Source: Rhodobacter sp. SGA-6-6
Lineage (GTDB): Bacteria; Pseudomonadota; Alphaproteobacteria; Rhodobacterales; Rhodobacteraceae
NCBI RefSeq assembly: GCF_011043545.1
Contig: NZ_JAAKGP010000001.1
Coordinates: forward strand, 372,001-436,000
Direction: 5' to 3'
DNA length: 64,000 nt
The notes beneath the pieces are model-generated. The model saw only the letters and a program-made list of their open reading frames with translations, was not told the origin of the DNA and made no database searches. The position numbers and the translations under genes were made by a program. Below, piece after piece: positions 52,584 through 62,240 of the stretch; positions within the stretch are counted from its first letter, which is position 1, and each line of letters starts with the position of its first letter.

Positions 52584-53693
52584 ATGACCACCGGATTCTA
52601 TTTCGACGAGCACTGCCTGTGGCACACCACGGGCGAGCATGTGATCATCGCCCCGGTCGGCGGCTATCTCCAGCCGCCCTCGGGCGCGGGCCATGCCGAA
52701 AGCCCCGAGACCAAGCGGCGGCTCAAAAACCTGGTCGAGGTCTCGGGCCTGGGCGACCATCTTGCCTGGCGCAAGGCGGCCCCGCTGATGCGGGCGGAGA
52801 TGGAGCGGGTGCATACCCCCGGCTATCTCGACAAGTTCAAGGCGCTGTCGGATGCGGGCGGCGGCAATGCCGGCTTCTATTCGCCCTTCGGCCCCGGCAG
52901 TTTCGAGATTGCGGCGCTGTCGGCCGGGCTGGTGAAACAGGCGGTGGCGGATGTGTTCCACCGCCGGGTGGACAATGCCTATGTCATCTCGCGCCCGCCG
53001 GGGCACCATTGCCTGCCGGATGCCTCGATGGGCTTCTGCCTCTTGGCGAACATCCCGCTGGCGCTGGAGGCGCTGCGGGCCGAGGTGGGGCCGGTGCGGG
53101 CGGCGGTGGTCGACTGGGACGTGCACCACGGCAACGGCACCGAGGCCTGTTTCATCGACCGCGACGACACGCTGACCATCAGTCTGCATCAGGAGAACTG
53201 CTTCCCGCCGGATCAGGGCCGGGCGGAGACCCGCGGCACCGGCAAGGGGGAGGGGTTCAACCTGAACATCCCCCTGCTGCCGGGCGGCGGCCACCAGGCC
53301 TATCTGGACGCCTTCGACCTGCTGGTCGCCCCCGCCCTGCGGGCGTTCAAGCCGGAGATCATCGTCGTCGCCTCCGGCCTCGACGCCAATTCCTTCGATC
53401 CGCTGGCGCGGATGCAGGCCAGTTCCGAGACCTTCCGCGCCATGGCGACCCGGATCAAGGCGCTGGCCGGCGAGCTGTGCGGCGGCCGCGTCCTCGCCGC
53501 GCACGAGGGCGGCTATGCCGAGGGCTATGTCCCCTTCTGCGGGCTGGCGGTGATCGAGACCTTCGCCGGCCACCGGACCGAGGTGCAGGACCCGTTCCTC
53601 GACATCCTCACCGCCCAGCAGCCGCCCGCCGATTTCGTCGGCTACCAGCGCAGGCGGCTGGAGGATCAGGCGCGCGGGCTGGGGCTGCTCTGA
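52584..53693 (+). CDS. Class II histone-deacetylase-like amidohydrolase
   Basis: 369 residues of the arginase/deacetylase fold. The zinc site is in VVDWDVHHGNGTEACF (Asp and His) and DANSFDP; the charge-relay His pair is in VISRPPGHHCLPDASMGFC. Bacterial members deacetylate acetylpolyamines or other N-acyl amines, since these cells have no histones. It lies directly upstream of an amide-type ABC transporter and shares an operator-like palindrome with it, so its substrate is probably an N-acyl amine handled by the cluster. Confidence 0.88.
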   Translation: MTTGFYFDEHCLWHTTGEHVIIAPVGGYLQPPSGAGHAESPETKRRLKNLVEVSGLGDHLAWRKAAPLMRAEMERVHTPGYLDKFKALSDAGGGNAGFYSPFGPGSFEIAALSAGLVKQAVADVFHRRVDNAYVISRPPGHHCLPDASMGFCLLANIPLALEALRAEVGPVRAAVVDWDVHHGNGTEACFIDRDDTLTISLHQENCFPPDQGRAETRGTGKGEGFNLNIPLLPGGGHQAYLDAFDLLVAPALRAFKPEIIVVASGLDANSFDPLARMQASSETFRAMATRIKALAGELCGGRVLAAHEGGYAEGYVPFCGLAVIETFAGHRTEVQDPFLDILTAQQPPADFVGYQRRRLEDQARGLGLL

Positions 53694-53812: not shown

Positions 53813-55066
53813 ATGACCCTGACCCGCCGTCAGTTCCTGATGACATCCGCCGCCTCGGTGGCCGCCGCCTCCATCGCCGCCCCCGCCTTCGCCGCCGAGC
53901 CGATCCTGATCGGCGTGCCCACCGCGCAATCCGGCCCGGTCGGCGTGGCCGACCAGCAGGACTGGCTGAACGGCGTCACCATGGCGGTGGAAGAGATCAA
54001 CGCGGCCGGCGGCGTCAACGGCCGCCCGCTGGAGACGCGGGTGGTGGACATCGACCTCTTGACCCCCGAAGGCACCGTCGCCGCCTTCCAGAGCCTGGTC
54101 GAGGGCGGCGTCCACGCTCTGGCGCACAGCTTCGCCATCATCGCCCAGCCGGCGATGGACGTGGCGGCGGCGAAAGGCCTGCCCTACCTGCACGGCAACA
54201 CCGCGCAGCAGAGCCTCGACCTGGTGAAGGCCAACCCGGAGAAATACCGCAACATCTTCCAGATCGACGTGGCCGAGACCTGGTATGGCGCCGGCTTCGT
54301 CAAGTTCCTGTCGAACCACCGCGCCGGGGGATGGCAGCCGAAGAACAACCGCATCCACATCGTGCAGGAGCAGATCGGCTATACCCAGGTCATCTCCAAG
54401 GCCACGCAGGCGGCCATCGCCGCCTCGGGCGGTGAATGGGAGCAGGGGCCGATCACCGACATCCAGTTCCCGGTGCAGGACTGGACGCCCATCGTGCAGG
54501 CGCTGAAGGACGCCGACTGCGGCGTGATCATGATCGACCACTGGGTCGCGGCGGAACTCGCCAGCTTCGCCCAAGCCTATGTGCTGGACCCGACGCCGGG
54601 CAGCCTGGTCTACCTGCAATACGGCCCCTCGCAGCCCGAGTTCCTGGACCTTGCCGGCGACGCGGCCGAGGGCTTCATCTGGGGCTCGGTCCTCGGCGTC
54701 TATGCCGACGAGAAGGGCATGGCCTTCCGCGAGTCCTATCAGGCCCGCTTCCCCGGCACGATGGGCATGGTCTACACCGGCGGCGGCTACGACGCGATCC
54801 ACATCCTCGCCGCCGCCTGGGCAGAGGCCGATCCGGCGGATTTCGATGCGGTGGGCAATGCGATCCGGGCGATCTCGCACCGCGGCGTCTGCGGCACCTA
54901 TACCTTCGCCACGCCGGAACAGACCCCGCTCAGCTACCCGAACACCACCGACGACCCCGAGGCCGGGCAGGCCCACCTGATCTTCCAGGTCCAGGACGGG
55001 GCGCATACGATCATCTCGCCCGAGACCCACAAGCAGGCCGACATGCGGCCCGCGCCCTGGATGTGA
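53813..55066 (+). CDS. Substrate-binding protein of an amide/branched-chain ABC transporter
   Basis: 417 residues with a Tat-type signal (TRRQFLMTSAASVAAA), suggesting the protein may be exported folded. The periplasmic binding fold (Peripla_BP_6) starts at ILIGVPTAQSGPVGVADQQD. The family includes the short-chain amide/urea binding proteins FmdD/UrtA as well as LivJ. The context with an N,N-dimethylformamidase-type enzyme supports an amide ligand. GGAGAGACTGCC precedes the ATG. The ATPase gene follows after 4 bases. Confidence 0.9.
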   Translation: MTLTRRQFLMTSAASVAAASIAAPAFAAEPILIGVPTAQSGPVGVADQQDWLNGVTMAVEEINAAGGVNGRPLETRVVDIDLLTPEGTVAAFQSLVEGGVHALAHSFAIIAQPAMDVAAAKGLPYLHGNTAQQSLDLVKANPEKYRNIFQIDVAETWYGAGFVKFLSNHRAGGWQPKNNRIHIVQEQIGYTQVISKATQAAIAASGGEWEQGPITDIQFPVQDWTPIVQALKDADCGVIMIDHWVAAELASFAQAYVLDPTPGSLVYLQYGPSQPEFLDLAGDAAEGFIWGSVLGVYADEKGMAFRESYQARFPGTMGMVYTGGGYDAIHILAAAWAEADPADFDAVGNAIRAISHRGVCGTYTFATPEQTPLSYPNTTDDPEAGQAHLIFQVQDGAHTIISPETHKQADMRPAPWM

Positions 55067-55070
55067 CCGT

Positions 55071-55799
55071 ATGGCGGCGGAGGCGATCTTCGGCTGCCGG
55101 GGTATCGGCATCTCCTTCGGCAACCGCGCCATCCTCCGGGATGTTTCCCTCTCCGTCTCCCCCGGAGAGGTCCTGGGTCTTGTCGGCCCCAACGGCGCCG
55201 GCAAGACCTCCTTGTTCGAGATTCTCTGCGGGCGCTACGTGGCCTCCAGCGGGACGGTCACGCTGAAGGGGCAGGACATCACCCGCCTGGCGGTGCATGA
55301 CCGGGCACGGCTGGGGCTGGCGCGGACCTACCAGAGCCCGGTGGTGCCCTCGTCCCTGACCATCGCCGAGACCTTCCGGGCGGCGCGCCATGCCTATCGG
55401 CCCTACCGGACGCGGATGGATGCGGAATGGGCCTGCCACATGGCCAATTTCCGCCAGCCCTGGGACCGGCTGGCCGGGTCCTTGGACACCTTCGACCGCC
55501 GCAAGCTGCTGCTGGCCTGCCTGCTGCTGCGCGACCCCTGCGTGCTGTTGCTGGACGAACCCGCCTCGGGCCTGATCAACTCGGAAATCGACGAACTGGA
55601 CCTGATCATCCGCCATCTGGTCGACGAGCATCACATCGCCGCCATCCTGATCGAACACCGGCTGGAGCTGTTGTCCGCCATCGCCGACCGCGCGGTGGTG
55701 CTGGACATGGGCGAGGTGATCGCCACCGGCACCCCGGCCGAGGTGTTCCAGAACCCCCGGGTGCTGGAAGCCTATTTCGAGGAGCCGGCGCATGGCTGA
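55071..55799 (+). CDS. ABC transporter ATP-binding protein (LivG-type) with degenerate signature motif
   Basis: 242 residues. Walker A is GPNGAGKTSLFE, Walker B VLLLDEPASGL and the H-loop His is in AAILIEHRLELL. The ABC signature, normally LSYGQ or LSGGQ, reads SLDTFDRRKLLL, so one of the two ATP sites of the transporter is predicted to be degenerate. Its partner LivF carries a normal LSGGE. It overlaps LivF by 8 bases. It probably energises uptake of an amide. Confidence 0.9.
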   Translation: MAAEAIFGCRGIGISFGNRAILRDVSLSVSPGEVLGLVGPNGAGKTSLFEILCGRYVASSGTVTLKGQDITRLAVHDRARLGLARTYQSPVVPSSLTIAETFRAARHAYRPYRTRMDAEWACHMANFRQPWDRLAGSLDTFDRRKLLLACLLLRDPCVLLLDEPASGLINSEIDELDLIIRHLVDEHHIAAILIEHRLELLSAIADRAVVLDMGEVIATGTPAEVFQNPRVLEAYFEEPAHG

Positions 55800-56490
55800 C
55801 GTGCTGGAAATCGAGGGCCTGACCGCCGGCTACGGGCCGTTGCGGGTGCTGCACGACATCTCCTTCCGGGTGGCGGAGGGCGAGCGCGTGGGGCTGGTCG
55901 GACTGAACGGCCACGGCAAGACCACGCTGTTCCGGGCGATTTCTGCGCTGGTCGGCTGGCAGTCGGGCTCGATCCGGCTGCTGGGGGCCGAGATCGGCGG
56001 CGCCCGCTCCACCGGGCCGGGGCGGAAGACGCCCGGCATCGTGCGGGCCGGGCTGGCGATGGCGCCGCAGGGGGATGCGATCTTCCCCGGCCTGACCGTG
56101 GCGCAGCATCTGGACTGCGGCGCCTATACACCGCTGGCCTGGAAGGAACGCAAGCGCCGGCGCGAGATGGTGTTCGACATCTTCCCGCCGCTGAGGAAGC
56201 TGGAACATGCGCTGGTCGGGCGGCTGTCGGGCGGCGAGCGCCGGATGGTCAGCGTCGGAAGGGCGCTGATGGTGGAGGCGCGGCTCTACCTGATCGACGA
56301 ACCCTCGCTGGGGTTGGCCCCGAAGATTTCCGCCAGCGTCATCGAGGCGCTGTTCTCGCTGCCGCAGGACGGCCGCGCCATCGTCATCGCCGAGCAGAAC
56401 GTCGCCCTGCTGTCGGGCCGGGTCGACCGCATGGTCGGGATGCACGCCGGCCGGCTGCGCGGCGATGTTGGCCATGTGAGCCTGCATTGA
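55792..56490 (+). CDS. ABC transporter ATP-binding protein (LivF-type)
   Basis: 232 residues. Walker A is GLNGHGKTTLFRA, the Q-loop Gln is in MAPQGDAIFPGLTV, the signature is RLSGGERRMVSVG and Walker B is LYLIDEPSLGL. Gly-His replaces the common Gly-Ala in the P-loop, which is tolerated in some families. It pairs with the preceding LivG. The stop overlaps the permease start by one base (TGATG). Confidence 0.92.
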   Translation: MADVLEIEGLTAGYGPLRVLHDISFRVAEGERVGLVGLNGHGKTTLFRAISALVGWQSGSIRLLGAEIGGARSTGPGRKTPGIVRAGLAMAPQGDAIFPGLTVAQHLDCGAYTPLAWKERKRRREMVFDIFPPLRKLEHALVGRLSGGERRMVSVGRALMVEARLYLIDEPSLGLAPKISASVIEALFSLPQDGRAIVIAEQNVALLSGRVDRMVGMHAGRLRGDVGHVSLH

Positions 56491-57419
56491 TGGACCTCTC
56501 CGTCACCCTCGTCCACGGGCTTTCCCTCGCCGCGATCTACGGGCTGATGGCGATCGGGATCAGCCTGTTGTGGTCTTCCATCGGCATGATCAACATGGCC
56601 CATGGCGCCAGCTTCGCGGTGGCGGGTTATGCGGCATGGGCCGCGTCGGAGGCAGCGAAGCCGCTGTTCCTGGCCGCCTTCGGCAAGACCATCGCCGGCA
56701 CCGCCGCCATGGCCGGGCTGACCTTGGGCACCGGGGCGCTGGCCGGCGCGATGATGGGGGCGCTGATCTACCTGCTGGCCTTCCTGCCGATCCACGACAA
56801 GCCGAATTTCCCGGTCCGCAGCCTGATCGTGACGCTGGCGCTGAACCTTGCCACGGTGCAGGTGCTGCTGTGGTGGTTCGGCCCGCGGCAGAAGAACCTG
56901 CCGAAGATCTTCGGCACCGGGAAGGTGGAGGTCCTCGGCATCTCCGCCCGCTACGACCAGATCGGCACCATCGCCGCCACCTTCCTGATCCTCGGCCTGG
57001 TGCTGCTGTGGCTGCGGGTCAGCCGCAAGGGGCTGGAGATCCGGGCGATGATGCAGAACCCCGAAGGGGCGGTGCTGTCGGGCATCTCGGTGCGCTGGAC
57101 CGCCCTGCCGGTGACGATGCTGACCGGCGCGCTGGCCGGGCTGGCGGCGATCCTGCTCAGCCAGACCATCTTCGTCTCGCCCACCTCCGGCGCCATGCCG
57201 CTGATCAAGGGCCTGACCATCGCGCTTCTCGGCGGCCTCGGCTCGGTCCCCGGGGCGGTCCTCGGCGCCATCATCATCGGCTTCCTCGAGGCGGTGATCG
57301 GCGCCATTCCCTTCCTCGGCCAGCGCTATGTGCTGTTCGGCACCTTCCTCTTCATAATCGTGGTGCTGATCCTGCGCCCGCGCGGCCTTGGCGGCCTGCT
57401 GGACGAGGCGCGGAAATGA
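56490..57419 (+). CDS. ABC transporter permease (LivH-type)
   Basis: 309 residues, about eight membrane helices: AAIYGLMAIGISLLWSSIGM at the N-terminus, and the EAA-like loop near LIKGLTIALLGGLGSVPGAV. The start ATG lies on the LivF stop, and a TTG three bases upstream is less likely. It overlaps the next gene (ATGA). The insertion of GKTIAGTAAMAGLTLGTGAL gives a slightly longer N-terminal half than LivH of E. coli. Confidence 0.92.
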   Translation: MDLSVTLVHGLSLAAIYGLMAIGISLLWSSIGMINMAHGASFAVAGYAAWAASEAAKPLFLAAFGKTIAGTAAMAGLTLGTGALAGAMMGALIYLLAFLPIHDKPNFPVRSLIVTLALNLATVQVLLWWFGPRQKNLPKIFGTGKVEVLGISARYDQIGTIAATFLILGLVLLWLRVSRKGLEIRAMMQNPEGAVLSGISVRWTALPVTMLTGALAGLAAILLSQTIFVSPTSGAMPLIKGLTIALLGGLGSVPGAVLGAIIIGFLEAVIGAIPFLGQRYVLFGTFLFIIVVLILRPRGLGGLLDEARK

Positions 57420-58933
57420 CGGAGAAGCGCTTCTACCGGATCGGCAGCCGCCCGGCCGAGATCATGCTGCCGGTCCGCGGCGACGTGCCCCTGGCCCGCC
57501 GCAGGCTGCCCTTCACCCGCCGTCACCTGCTGAAATGGCGGTCGCGGCTGAACCCCAAGACCCTGCGGCAGGAACGCTGGCTGGCCGACAAGAAGCCGCT
57601 GTGGTGGACCATCGCGCTGGTGCTGCTGGCGGTCTCGGCGCCGTTCCTGTCGAACTCGGCGCTGACGGTGGCGTCGATCTTCTGCATCTTCACCGCGATC
57701 AACCTCCTGTGGACGCTGATCATCGGCACCGCCGGCATCTTCAGCCTGGCGACGCTGGCGGTGGTCGGCATCGGCGCCTATGCAAGTGCTGCACTGAACG
57801 TCTACCTCGGCCTGCCCTGGCCACTAATGTTTCTCGCCGGAGGCGTCGCGGGCCTGATCGTCGGCGGCTTCCTCGCCCTGCCCTCGACCCGGCTGGACGG
57901 GCTTTATTACGCCCTCCTGACCATGGGCTTCGCCGAAATCTGCCGGGTCTTCGTGCAGCAGTTGAAACCGCTGACGCCGATGAACGGGTCGATCAACAAC
58001 GTCGGCTCCTTCATCCCGAGGGACTGGTTCCTGCAACGGCCCGGGCTTCTGCTCGGCTTCGCCGGGGCCTTCGTCCTGATGCTGCTGGCCCTGCTGACCT
58101 TCCGCATCGTCAACTCCGAACGGCTCGGGATGCTCTTGCAGACCGCGCGCGAGGACGAGGCTTTCGCCGAGGCCGTCGGCATCGACTACCGCCGCGCCCG
58201 GCTGCATGTCTTCCTGATCTCCTCGGCCGGGCTCGGCGTCATCGGGGCCTTCTACGCACAGTTCTACGGCTCGATCTCGCCCGCGGTGTTCAGCCTCGAC
58301 CAGTTGATGCTCTTGTTCGCCATGATCGTCATCGGCGGGCTCGGCCGGGCGGAAGGGGCCGCCATCGGCACCGCCATCGTGGTGCTGATCGACAAGGGGC
58401 TCCTGGACCTCGGCCCGCTGCGCATCCTTCTGGTCGCGGCGATCATGCTGGCGGTGACGCTGCTCACCCACAACGGCCTGGCCGGGGCGCGCAACCAGTT
58501 CCGCGGCTGGCGGCAACGCAGGCAATCCGAGGCGCGGGCGCGCCGCAGCGAAAAGGGGGGCGAGGTGATGCCCGAGGAAGCCATCGAGATCGAGGACAAG
58601 CAGGCGATCTACTACCGCCGGTTCCAGAAGCGCCTGCGCGACCGGCTCAAGGCGCTGATCACGCCCGAGCTGATCGAGGAACACCGCAAGCGCCCGCTGG
58701 GCCAGCATTCCGACGCGCTTTCCCGGGTGCTGAACCATTTCCGCCGCGGCGAGGTGGCGGACAAATACGCCATCCTGCGCCAGTCCGGCCAGTTCCATGC
58801 CTACAAGATCGTGGCCTTCTCGGGCGTGCGCGGGGCGCCGCCGCGGCTGGTGGACGACCGGGTCTATACCGACATCAACGAGGCCTATCACGCGGTCTTC
58901 CTTCTGCGCGTGAACGACCTGATGGAAAGCTGA
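57416..58933 (+). CDS. LivM-type permease fused in frame to the N,N-dimethylformamidase small subunit
   Basis: 505 residues in one uninterrupted frame. Residues 1-65 are a basic, cytosolic-looking extension; about 65-365 are a LivM-type permease (LLWTLIIGTAGIFSLATLAV, GLGVIGAFYAQFYGSISPAV). After a charged linker (RQRRQSEARARRSEKGG) the C-terminal 121 residues match the alpha subunit of dimethylformamidase: EHRKRPLGQHSDALSRVLNH, then a terminal NEAYHAVFLLRVNDL. Known alpha subunits are separate proteins of about 130 residues. It may be a true fusion, or the subunit may be made from the internal ATG at 58568. Either way the enzyme is tied to the transporter. Confidence 0.85.
   Translation: MTEKRFYRIGSRPAEIMLPVRGDVPLARRRLPFTRRHLLKWRSRLNPKTLRQERWLADKKPLWWTIALVLLAVSAPFLSNSALTVASIFCIFTAINLLWTLIIGTAGIFSLATLAVVGIGAYASAALNVYLGLPWPLMFLAGGVAGLIVGGFLALPSTRLDGLYYALLTMGFAEICRVFVQQLKPLTPMNGSINNVGSFIPRDWFLQRPGLLLGFAGAFVLMLLALLTFRIVNSERLGMLLQTAREDEAFAEAVGIDYRRARLHVFLISSAGLGVIGAFYAQFYGSISPAVFSLDQLMLLFAMIVIGGLGRAEGAAIGTAIVVLIDKGLLDLGPLRILLVAAIMLAVTLLTHNGLAGARNQFRGWRQRRQSEARARRSEKGGEVMPEEAIEIEDKQAIYYRRFQKRLRDRLKALITPELIEEHRKRPLGQHSDALSRVLNHFRRGEVADKYAILRQSGQFHAYKIVAFSGVRGAPPRLVDDRVYTDINEAYHAVFLLRVNDLMES
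58568..58933 (+). other. Possible internal start giving a free dimethylformamidase alpha subunit
   Basis: The ATG at 58568 is in frame with the permease and is preceded by GGGGGGCGAGGTG, a plausible ribosome site. It would give a 121-residue protein (MPEEAIEIEDKQAIYYRRF...) close in size to DMFase alpha subunits. Whether it is used cannot be told from the sequence. Confidence 0.5.
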
Positions 58934-58934
58934 C

Positions 58935-61244
58935 ATGACCAACACCCGCATCTTCGGCTATGCCGATCCGCTCTGCGCCCGGGCGGGCGGCACGGTGGAT
59001 TTCATGATCTCGGTCGAGGGGCGCGAGACGGTCACGCCGCGGCTGGTGCGGGTGCTGCACGGCGACGAGAACCCGGAGGGGCCGGGCCATGTCGAGGAAG
59101 CGGTGGACCTGGCCCTGCCGGCCGAGATCGCGGTGAAGCGGCAGTTCACCCAGGTGGGCAGCTTCGCCCGGGCCGAGGACCCGGAGGGGCGGCTGGACGG
59201 GCTGACCTCCTTCACCCTCTTCGCCCATGTCCATCCTACCGCGCCGAAGGCGGAGCGGCAGCAGATCATGGGCCGGTGGGCCATCGGCCCGTCCAAGGGC
59301 TTCGGCCTCGGCATCGACCCGGACGGGCATGTGGCGCTGTGGATCGGCGACGGCGCCCATGTCGACGAGATCAGGACCGAGGTGACGCTGGTCCCGCGCT
59401 GCTGGTATTTCGTGGCGGCCAGTTTCGACGGGGCCAGCGGCAAGGCCGAGTTGCACCTGATCAACACCGTCAACCCGTGGAACAGCCGCATCTCCACCGT
59501 GGTGCCGTTCCAGCCCGACAGCTGGATCAGGGAGGTGCTGCGCCACCGCCCCGCCGCCACCGGCGCCGACGCCAGCTTCAAGCTGGCCGCCGCCACCGCG
59601 GAGAACCCGGTGCGCGGGCATCACGGCGGCTTCCTCTACAACGGCAAGATCGACCGGGCCGGGGTCTATGACCGGCCCTTGGACAGGGCGGAGGTGGAGG
59701 CGCTTTCGCGCGGCGAGACACCGCCGCAGGACGGGCTGCTGGCCTTCTGGGACCCCACCGCCAACCTCGGCCGCGAGGGCGTGGGCGACACGATCCCCGA
59801 CACCGGGCCGCACGGCATTCCCATGCAGGGCGTCAACCGCCCGGTCCGCTGCATGACCGGCTTCAACTGGCGCGGCGAGGACAGCTACCGGCTGGCCCCG
59901 GAAACCTTCGGCGGCGTCCATTACCACGACGACGCCATGACCGACTGCCGCTGGGAGAAGACCTTCACCCTGGCCCTGCCGGACGACCTGAAATCCGGCG
60001 TCTACTGCCTGCGGATCGAGGCCGGGGGCGGGCAGGATTCCATCCCCTTCATCGTCCGCCCCAAGGCGCCGAAGGCGAAGCTGGCGCTGCTGCTGCCGAC
60101 CTTCACCTATCTGGCCTATGCCAACGAGCACCTCAGTTACGAGGCCCCCATCGCCCAGGCGATCACCGCCCATACCCCGGTGCTGAACGAAGAGGACCTG
60201 GAATACAAGAAGCTGGAGGAATTCGGGCTTTCCACCTACGACCACCATTCCGACGGCGCCGGCTGCTGTTATTCCTCGTGGCGCCGGCCGATCATCACCC
60301 TGCGGCCGCGCTACCGGCTGCCGGCGATGAACTTCCCCTGGGCGCTGCCGGCCGATCTGTCGCTGATCTGGTGGCTGGAGCACGCGGGCTACGACTATGA
60401 CCTGATCACCGACCACGACCTGCACGCCGAGGGGGTGGACTGCCTGAAGCCCTACAAGGCGGTGATGAACGGGACGCACCCGGAGTATTACTCCGAGCAG
60501 ATGATGGACGCGACGGAGGCCTATCTGCGGACTGGCGGGCGGCTGATGTATATCGGCGGCAACGGCTATTACTGGGTCACCGGCACCCGCAAGGACGAGC
60601 CGCATTGCATCGAGGTGCGCAAGCTGGACACCGGCAGCCGCGCCTGGCAGGCGGAGCCAGGCGAAGGCTATCTGGCCTGCACCGGGCAGAAATCCGGCCT
60701 CTGGCGGTCGCGCGGGCGGGCGCCGCAGAAGATCGTCGGCCTGGGCTTCACCGCCGAGGGGATGGACGAAAGCCAGCCGTTCGAGCGGATGCCGGACAGC
60801 TACCACAAGCGCGCGGCCTGGATCTTCGAGGGCATTGGCGACGAGGAGCCTATCGGCGACTTCGGCCTTGCCGCCGGTGGCGCCGGCGGGATCGAGCTGG
60901 ACCGCTACGAACTCGGCCTCGGCACCCCGCCGCATACGCTGCTGGTGGCCTCCACCTCCGGCCATTCCGACAACTATCCGCTGGTCAGCGAGGAAGTGAC
61001 CTATGCCTTCCCCGGCCGCGGCGGCACCCAGGATGCGCAGGTGCGCGGCGACATGATCTGGTTCACCACGCCGGAAAACGGCGCCTGCTTCGCCGCCGGC
61101 TCCATCGCCTGGAGCCAGGCCCTGCCCTGCAAGGGCGGCGAAAACAACGTGGCCCGAATCATGCGGAACGTGTTGAATGCCTTCCTCAGGGACGGCCCCC
61201 TGCCAGGGTATCGATACACCGGCGACGAGACGCTCTGGCGCTGA
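58935..61244 (+). CDS. N,N-dimethylformamidase large (beta) subunit family protein
   Basis: 769 residues, close to the 762 of known beta subunits, without signal peptide, so cytoplasmic. A lectin-like/LamG segment (about 85-255) precedes the catalytic half. DMFase structures have a mononuclear iron held by two Tyr and one Glu; the best candidates here are Tyr392 or 395 (TYLAYANEHLSYE), Tyr435 (GLSTYDHHSDGAG) and Glu517 (NGTHPEYYSEQM). It hydrolyses DMF or a related amide to formate and dimethylamine. The start is 1 base after the alpha-subunit stop. Confidence 0.9.
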   Translation: MTNTRIFGYADPLCARAGGTVDFMISVEGRETVTPRLVRVLHGDENPEGPGHVEEAVDLALPAEIAVKRQFTQVGSFARAEDPEGRLDGLTSFTLFAHVHPTAPKAERQQIMGRWAIGPSKGFGLGIDPDGHVALWIGDGAHVDEIRTEVTLVPRCWYFVAASFDGASGKAELHLINTVNPWNSRISTVVPFQPDSWIREVLRHRPAATGADASFKLAAATAENPVRGHHGGFLYNGKIDRAGVYDRPLDRAEVEALSRGETPPQDGLLAFWDPTANLGREGVGDTIPDTGPHGIPMQGVNRPVRCMTGFNWRGEDSYRLAPETFGGVHYHDDAMTDCRWEKTFTLALPDDLKSGVYCLRIEAGGGQDSIPFIVRPKAPKAKLALLLPTFTYLAYANEHLSYEAPIAQAITAHTPVLNEEDLEYKKLEEFGLSTYDHHSDGAGCCYSSWRRPIITLRPRYRLPAMNFPWALPADLSLIWWLEHAGYDYDLITDHDLHAEGVDCLKPYKAVMNGTHPEYYSEQMMDATEAYLRTGGRLMYIGGNGYYWVTGTRKDEPHCIEVRKLDTGSRAWQAEPGEGYLACTGQKSGLWRSRGRAPQKIVGLGFTAEGMDESQPFERMPDSYHKRAAWIFEGIGDEEPIGDFGLAAGGAGGIELDRYELGLGTPPHTLLVASTSGHSDNYPLVSEEVTYAFPGRGGTQDAQVRGDMIWFTTPENGACFAAGSIAWSQALPCKGGENNVARIMRNVLNAFLRDGPLPGYRYTGDETLWR

Positions 61245-61265: not shown

Positions 61266-62240
61266 ATGAAGCCAGGCATCGCCAGCTTCTCTCGGTTCGT
61301 GACCGAGATGCAGCACCGCAGCCTTGAACAGGATGCGGAGGGGCTGGCCCGCTGGGCGGTCGGCGACCTGTCCCGCACGCTGGGCTTCGATGCCGCCTGG
61401 TATGGCTGGGCCACCCTGCGGGCCGAAGGGGTGGAGGTCTATGCCAATGCCACGCTGGACCTGCCGGACGGCTTCCACGACTACTGGAAGACCATGTCCG
61501 AACAGGACCTGCTGGCCCGCTACATGCTGGAGAACCCCGGCGAGACAGCGATCTACGACCGCACCCAGCCGCGGCAGAACGACGGCATGACCAGCCTGTC
61601 GGACCGCTACGGCCTGCGCCGGATCACCACGGCAATGAACGGGCATTACGGCAATCACGCCAGCTTCTACATCTCCTCCTACCGCGTCGGCGCGCGGGCC
61701 CGGGCCTGGTCGGATGCCGAGCGCGACTTCCTGCAATGCGCGGTGGACCAGCTGTCCGCCGCGATGAAGCTGTCGGTGGCCGAACCGGGGCGGGCCTCGG
61801 CGCCCGGCTCGGTCTCGATCCTCGCCTCGGAGAACGGCATCGGCCTCCTCGGCCTGCCGCTGCTGCGCGAGCGGTTCGGCGACATCTGGCCGCGCTGGAC
61901 CGGCGACCGCCTGCCCGAGCAGCTGGCCGGGCTGATCGGCCGACCCGGCAGCCACATCCTGCCCGACCGCGACCTGGTGGTGACGGTGGAGGCCGCACCG
62001 CGGCTGCAGGGCATGGGGCTTCGGCGGATCACCCTGCGGCGGCTGCACCGCTTCGACCTGCTGACCAGCCGCGAGCGCGAAGTGGCGCGCGAACTGGCAG
62101 AGGGGAAAAGCGCCAAGGAAGTCGCGCGCCATCTGGGGCTGGCCCCGGCCACGGTGCGCAACCAGACCCAGTCGATCTACCAGAAGCTGCAGGTCGACAA
62201 CCGGGCGGCGCTGGCCGCCATGGTGAACACGCTGGGCTGA
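61266..62240 (+). CDS. LuxR-family regulator of the amide cluster (DmfR-like)
   Basis: 324 residues. The N-terminal part (about 1-230) looks like a GAF-type sensing domain and lacks the acyl-homoserine-lactone binding pattern. The C-terminal helix-turn-helix reads LTSREREVARELAEGKSAKE, VARHLGLAPATVRNQTQSIYQ. A LuxR-family activator controls the dimethylformamidase genes of a Paracoccus plasmid, and this gene follows the enzyme genes directly, so the same role is inferred. AAGGGGGAGG precedes the ATG. Confidence 0.87.
   Translation: MKPGIASFSRFVTEMQHRSLEQDAEGLARWAVGDLSRTLGFDAAWYGWATLRAEGVEVYANATLDLPDGFHDYWKTMSEQDLLARYMLENPGETAIYDRTQPRQNDGMTSLSDRYGLRRITTAMNGHYGNHASFYISSYRVGARARAWSDAERDFLQCAVDQLSAAMKLSVAEPGRASAPGSVSILASENGIGLLGLPLLRERFGDIWPRWTGDRLPEQLAGLIGRPGSHILPDRDLVVTVEAAPRLQGMGLRRITLRRLHRFDLLTSREREVARELAEGKSAKEVARHLGLAPATVRNQTQSIYQKLQVDNRAALAAMVNTLG

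Follow-up and report, generated by a model that had tools for sequence, protein, structure and literature searches.

The window, the whole 64-kb stretch of Rhodobacter sp. SGA-6-6 DNA that was analyzed, contains on its plus strand a gene cluster for an ABC importer and a relative of N,N-dimethylformamidase (DMFase). The genes are, in order, a periplasmic substrate-binding protein (53813-55066; PF13458), two ABC ATPases (55071-55799 and 55792-56490; LivF/LivG type by reading, with the order kept in relatives), a LivH-type permease (56487-57419; Pfam), a LivM-type permease joined to a DMFase alpha-subunit domain (57416-58933), a DMFase-like catalytic beta subunit of 769 amino acids (58935-61244; 6lvb_A, E 9.8e-178; PF20254, E 7.5e-96), and a LuxR-type regulator (61266-62240; Pfam) that is also 3' of beta at the loci of close relatives. 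The LivH gene overlaps the fused gene by 4 bases. Beta begins one base downstream of the fused gene, as the earlier note had it: the stop codon is at 58931-58933 and, after a single base, the ATG of beta is at 58935. Upstream of the cluster (52584-53693) is a gene that by reading belongs to the acetylpolyamine-amidohydrolase/HDAC-like family, with an 85% match at locus L018. This gene may bear on the substrate of the cluster.

We found that the permease and the alpha domain share a single frame. Translation of 57416-58933 gives 505 residues, and the sole stop is the terminal one. The permease part, residues 1-384 (57416-58567), matches PF02653 (BPD_transp_2) at residues 83-347 (E 1.5e-26) and has a basic linker at its end. 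The NCBIfam models for LivM (93.9 bits) and UrtC (60.3 bits) both scored far under their curated cut-offs; the part is of the LivM type in that it has the BPD_transp_2 domain and is encoded in one operon with a binding protein, LivH and two ATPases. The tail, residues 385-505, is similar to 6lvb_B, the small subunit of DMFase (E 2.8e-10), and no Pfam or NCBIfam model matched this domain at the thresholds used. The translation and these matches confirm the proposal that no stop separates a LivM-type permease from a DMFase alpha domain. It had also been said that alpha is described in the literature as an independent protein, and the accessible text of PMC7686228 does give it as a separate polypeptide of ~15 kDa. 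Because there is no stop between the domains, the fused protein would be made whenever LivM is translated, unless the chain is cut.

The predicted structure of the tail is that of a DMFase small subunit. An AlphaFold2 model of the fused protein (44-row alignment; mean pLDDT 82, pTM 0.65) has helices at residues 395-414, 417-425, 433-444 and 487-504 and strands at 450-455 and 463-468. The small subunit is described in the accessible text of PMC7686228 as having four helices and two strands, in agreement with the model. The top Foldseek match of the modelled tail was 6lvb_B (TM 0.78 by target length). Residues 380-394, in the linker, were modelled without helix or strand (block pLDDT 55-66). The linker is located after the last membrane helix, and residues 355-385 contain 9 Lys/Arg versus 3 Asp/Glu. 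According to the positive-inside rule, basic segments next to membrane helices face the cytoplasm. Based on this rule and the basic linker, we infer that the alpha tail is on the cytoplasmic side of the membrane. If the product is not cleaved, the amidase alpha is likely anchored in the membrane.

The length of the frame was dropped as evidence for the fusion: the two strands of the window together have 27 open frames that reach 505 amino acids or more, real genes included. We scanned GTDB contigs with an alpha profile (a ten-row alignment of eight fused and two free alphas), which gave 91 relatives, and examined 80 of them (L024-L103). LivM was fused in frame at 75 of the 80 alpha loci, a proportion that is not a prevalence, as a profile built mainly from fused alphas favors them. 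At the remaining five loci alpha was free, and the stretch fetched had no match to LivM, LivH or a binding protein. The 75 fused loci span Alpha-, Beta- and Gammaproteobacteria, a Desulfobacula MAG and three actinomycete MAGs (taxa as labelled). Beta was present at 79 of the 80; the contig of L094 stops before the position of beta.

A protein search with the 505-residue product, suggested in the earlier note as a check on conservation, gave matches in 9 of 394 genomes of the family at E 1e-30, own genome included. Two of the nine were to the permease only; full-length fused matches were in seven genomes, the source genome and six others. Alpha matches, fused or free, were found in 3 of 385 genomes of the class and 3 of 398 of the phylum (own genome included), and in 20 of 397 genomes in the order of genome G1034. 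Among plasmid records with a match to the fused protein, 26 of 27 covered at least 80% of the query and 21 of 27 were from Agrobacterium; in those with annotation, the fused gene is labelled as a permease for branched-chain amino acids. Since the same joint frame is conserved at 75 of 80 loci, in a second copy in the source genome, and in the six other family genomes, we regard the fusion as above chance. The number of genomes that share it also rules out an assembly error or a missed stop.

Several other alpha-like loci were noted in these searches. Two, L120 and L128, have long open frames and lack a LivM match; we read them as free alphas in a chance frame and rejected them as fusions. In the family of genome G687, alpha-like matches at E 1e-8 were found in 21 of 21 genomes searched. 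Individual genomes had as many as six, and the seven strongest loci, which we examined, look free. This suggests that the family holds many DMFase-like paralogues. An inner membrane translocator and an N,N-dimethylformamidase have been reported near SAR11 rhodopsin genes (PMC10308929, accessible text). The Pelagibacteraceae (SAR11) fused loci in our set (L090-L093, L096 and L097) have a Shine-Dalgarno sequence (SD) and an ATG at the junction.

The source genome has a second full cluster (L009, C12:495000-512000), in which the fused protein is 48% identical to that of the window and is followed by a separate alpha gene and then beta. Three alphas were found in this genome in all: the window fused alpha, the second-cluster fused alpha and the second-cluster free alpha. 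That is, one genome has both designs, a cluster with a candidate internal start (the window) and a cluster with split genes. We compared the junction in 77 fused genes, consisting of the window gene, that of the second cluster and the 75 among L024-L103. Genes with no adjoining second alpha (one-alpha; n=64) were separated from those with a free alpha gene next to them (two-alpha; n=13). All of these counts are of loci and not of evolutionary events, and the rows include near-copies (L064/L066, L085/L086 and six Pelagibacteraceae).

Most one-alpha genes have a start codon at the junction. In the window gene, the candidate internal ATG is at 58568, 3' of a putative SD, AAGGGGGG (58553-58560), that lies within Lys-Gly-Gly codons. 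The predicted product is a free alpha subunit of 121 amino acids (58568-58933). Among the one-alpha genes, the junction has ATG in 58 of 64 and GTG or TTG in 3; the 3 with no start are the three actinomycete MAG loci. In contrast, none of the 13 two-alpha genes has ATG, 2 (L058 and L059) have GTG or TTG, and 11 have no start. In the second cluster of the source genome, the junction codon is CTG and the glycine codon GGC. Further two-alpha examples found outside this set also lack ATG: L124 and L142 (CTG and CTC) and the partial locus L144 (TTG).

The junction ATGs also differ from the other ATGs of the same genes. The median predicted anti-SD energy was -10.9 kcal/mol at junction ATGs versus -1.7 kcal/mol at 769 other in-frame ATGs, and energies of -10 kcal/mol or lower were found at 47 of 58 of the former and 4 of 769 of the latter. 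The junction ATG was the best-scoring ATG of its gene in 52 of 58 cases. It is at the aligned residue in 31 genes, one residue earlier in 27 and at both in none. Because the ATG shifts by one codon and is never present twice, it appears that the start itself is kept, and not a methionine at one site. For the glycine codon of the SD, 50 of 60 one-alpha genes use GGA or GGG, as do 832 of 2646 (31%) of the other glycine codons of these genes and 0 of 13 two-alpha genes. A conserved in-frame start with a predicted ribosome site is found at the domain boundary, as is expected of an internal-start gene of the Cas11 type.

It is possible that the fused protein alone matters, that the amidase is solely membrane-tethered, and that the SD and ATG are by-products of the linker peptide EKGGE-M/L-PEE. 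This peptide is conserved in both classes, including genes that need no start, so part of the SD does derive from the peptide. In synonymous resampling, just 19 of 64 one-alpha rows individually passed P 0.05. For the window gene alone, a fraction of 0.287 of 1000 resamples had an equally strong ribosome site, so the signal for an internal start is in the gene set and not in the window gene. A general test for synonymous constraint at the junction was negative in three row sets; the conservation ranks of the two segments covering the SD were 82 and 97 among 464 segments in a close clade (15 rows), 324 and 327 among 349 in the one-alpha class (61 rows), and 185 and 183 among 420 in the two-alpha class (13 rows). 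Predicted folding of the RNA near the internal start of the window gene was uninformative (z -0.73). Three loci without a junction start, L063, L072 and L073 from actinomycetes, also fit a role for the fused protein alone. They have the fusion, an altered linker, no SD and no adjoining second alpha, and we found no other alpha in two of the genomes and a weak one in the third. At these loci the fused form seems to be the sole one, and because of them we think that free alpha is not always required. What the peptide does not explain is that two-alpha genes write it with GGC or GGT and never with the ATG (0/13), whereas one-alpha genes use GGA or GGG (50/60) and the ATG (58/64), or that the start moves by one codon between lineages and is nonetheless retained. 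We think it rather unlikely that the fused protein is the only product that matters.

The internal start at the junction looks real, and the comparison suggests that the cell also makes free alpha from it. The earlier note had proposed this for the ATG at 58568 on the strength of its ribosome site. The comparative start pattern supports the proposal; the strength of the window's own site, which is unexceptional, does not.

The two-alpha clusters are informative about the fused form. Mean pairwise identity in these clusters was 79% for the fused alpha, 76% for LivM and 49% for the free alpha (alpha2). Since the fused alpha is better conserved than alpha2 and has no internal ATG, it is probably used as a fusion, and its conservation points more strongly than any other observation to a role of its own for the fused form. 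A different possibility is cleavage within the linker, which would yield an ordinary LivM and an ordinary alpha in equal amounts and no tethering. The linker is basic and strongly conserved and was modelled without secondary structure, all consistent with a cut. Cleavage fails to explain why the fused alpha is better conserved than the separate one, and we consider it quite improbable.

A gain of a separate alpha gene appears to account for the two-alpha class. In a tree of the 77 fused genes, the 13 two-alpha rows are on one branch (support 35), and the order of the Pelagibacteraceae and L087 relative to this branch was left unsettled. Alpha2 groups among the fused alphas (97/81), with one origin in the set. 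Because there was one main evolutionary event, P values counted by row overstate the association between the start and the second alpha. The independent-pairs test had one pair available, and we therefore make no kinship-corrected statistical claim.

Loci beyond L024-L103 partly duplicate them, and eight were added for an 85-row tree. There, L168 appears as a second gain of a free alpha, and at least two changes are forced. L168 pairs with L125 (support 84), and its own two alphas pair with support 30. L168 has a free alpha after the first beta yet keeps the junction ATG, with a weak SD (-6.3 versus -10.9 in L125). Among the 58 one-alpha junction ATGs, 11 are weaker than -10 and several are near -6.5, and L123 has -6.6; since weak sites occur in one-alpha genes too, L168 is neutral for the contrast between the classes. 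Among other loci scanned as examples, L154/L168 has its free alpha further along and retains the ATG, and L152 and L153 carry TTG. The two-alpha gene L083 has kept an SD-like stretch (-10.5) and has no start. Clusters with two beta genes were also seen, at L125 (Aminobacter plasmid pMDW2) and L168; in L168 the free alpha precedes the second beta. The best reading of these comparisons is a single gene with two products, which in one lineage then became two separate genes.

Beta has the catalytic residues of DMFase. Y395, Y435 and E517 of the window beta correspond to the iron-site residues Tyr399, Tyr440 and Glu521, and His519 and Asn547 are kept as H515 and N543. The pocket residue F693 is Tyr690 in the window beta, so the substrate is possibly different from that of DMFase. 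AceAB, a reported relative, was reported to be inactive on DMF (PMC11573777, accessible text), and for this reason the substrate cannot be read from homology. According to the accessible text of PMC7686228, the beta subunit of the Paracoccus enzyme is inactive on its own and requires alpha; the assembly is alpha2-beta2 or a dimer of that; and the N-terminal helix of alpha lies between the beta subunits, with the entrance to the pocket at the alpha-beta interface.

The best explanation, to which we give a probability of about two in three, is a two-product gene with beta tethered at the importer and a later duplication of alpha. Initiation at 57416 would give a LivM permease whose C-terminal tail, in the cytoplasm, carries the amidase alpha, and the internal ribosome site (58553-58570) would give free alpha. 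Both forms would bind the beta encoded directly downstream, so that part of the iron amidase would be kept beside the importer on its inner side and would act on the same, probably small amide, substrate. One LivM is expected per LivHM importer. Since this supplies one LivM-borne alpha and an alpha2-beta2 enzyme has two, the second alpha of the dimer would have to come from the free form, which may also provide enzyme in solution. A duplication of alpha would have followed in a sub-lineage, the free role passing to a gene of its own and the internal start of the fused gene being lost.

Domains on the tails of transporters often regulate transport. The alpha domain on LivM might be a regulator that senses beta or the product and gates the importer, with no channelling, and the retention of a fused alpha beside the free one in two-alpha clusters would fit. 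This is unlikely, given that the only alpha of one-alpha clusters is the fused or internally started one and that the Paracoccus beta needs alpha (PMC7686228, accessible text). With a tethered beta, channelling of the amide from importer to amidase is possible, and the reported location of the active-site entrance at the alpha-beta interface (PMC7686228) makes it plausible. The fullest form of the two-product reading is a transport metabolon: LivHM-tethered alpha plus free alpha, from the internal start or its own gene, with beta2 docked on this uneven pair and the amide passed from the importer to the iron site at the alpha-beta entrance. We hold this form tentatively, with the odds somewhat against it.

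The window cluster shares features with several known systems. It resembles DMFase (DmfA1/DmfA2 of Paracoccus; PDB 6lvb) in its homologous alpha and beta, in the iron-site Tyr, Tyr, Glu, His and Asn, and in the nearby LuxR-type regulator, DmfR being reported to regulate the known DMFase genes. Unlike the window alpha, which is a permease tail encoded in frame with LivM and has a putative internal start, DMFase is described with a separate alpha and, in the accessible accounts, with no mention of a linked importer. The order of binding protein, two ATPases, LivH and LivM is that of the LivFGHMK and the urea and amide importers (LivM, UrtC), but the window LivM has an extra 121-residue enzyme subunit at its C-terminus. 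In Cas8-Cas11, translation that begins within the gene of the large subunit yields the small one (PMC11899642, accessible text). The in-frame internal start for a small subunit (putative in the window gene) is common to both; Cas8-Cas11 is a defence complex with no membrane transporter, whereas the long product here is part of an importer. In other Cas systems, the small subunit has its own gene. Fusions of transporters to enzymes are known, for example SulP with carbonic anhydrase in one chain. There the whole enzyme is fused, unlike the non-catalytic subunit with a putative start for a free form found here. We found no account of a LivM-DMFase alpha fusion in the literature searched, which had few subscription papers, including the accessible text of PMC7686228, PMC4543880, PMC10308929, PMC11573777 and PMC11381386. 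The combination of an importer-enzyme fusion with an internal start, together with its natural division between two genes, appears to be new.

Alpha is in effect a hidden subunit: it is unmatched by Pfam and NCBIfam at the thresholds used, and the annotated plasmid records describe the fused gene by its permease part alone. If both products are made, these clusters would encode a naturally occurring, widely distributed complex of importer and enzyme that carries its own source of the free subunit. Because both designs are in one genome, the proposed physical joining of uptake to the first catabolic step is directly testable.
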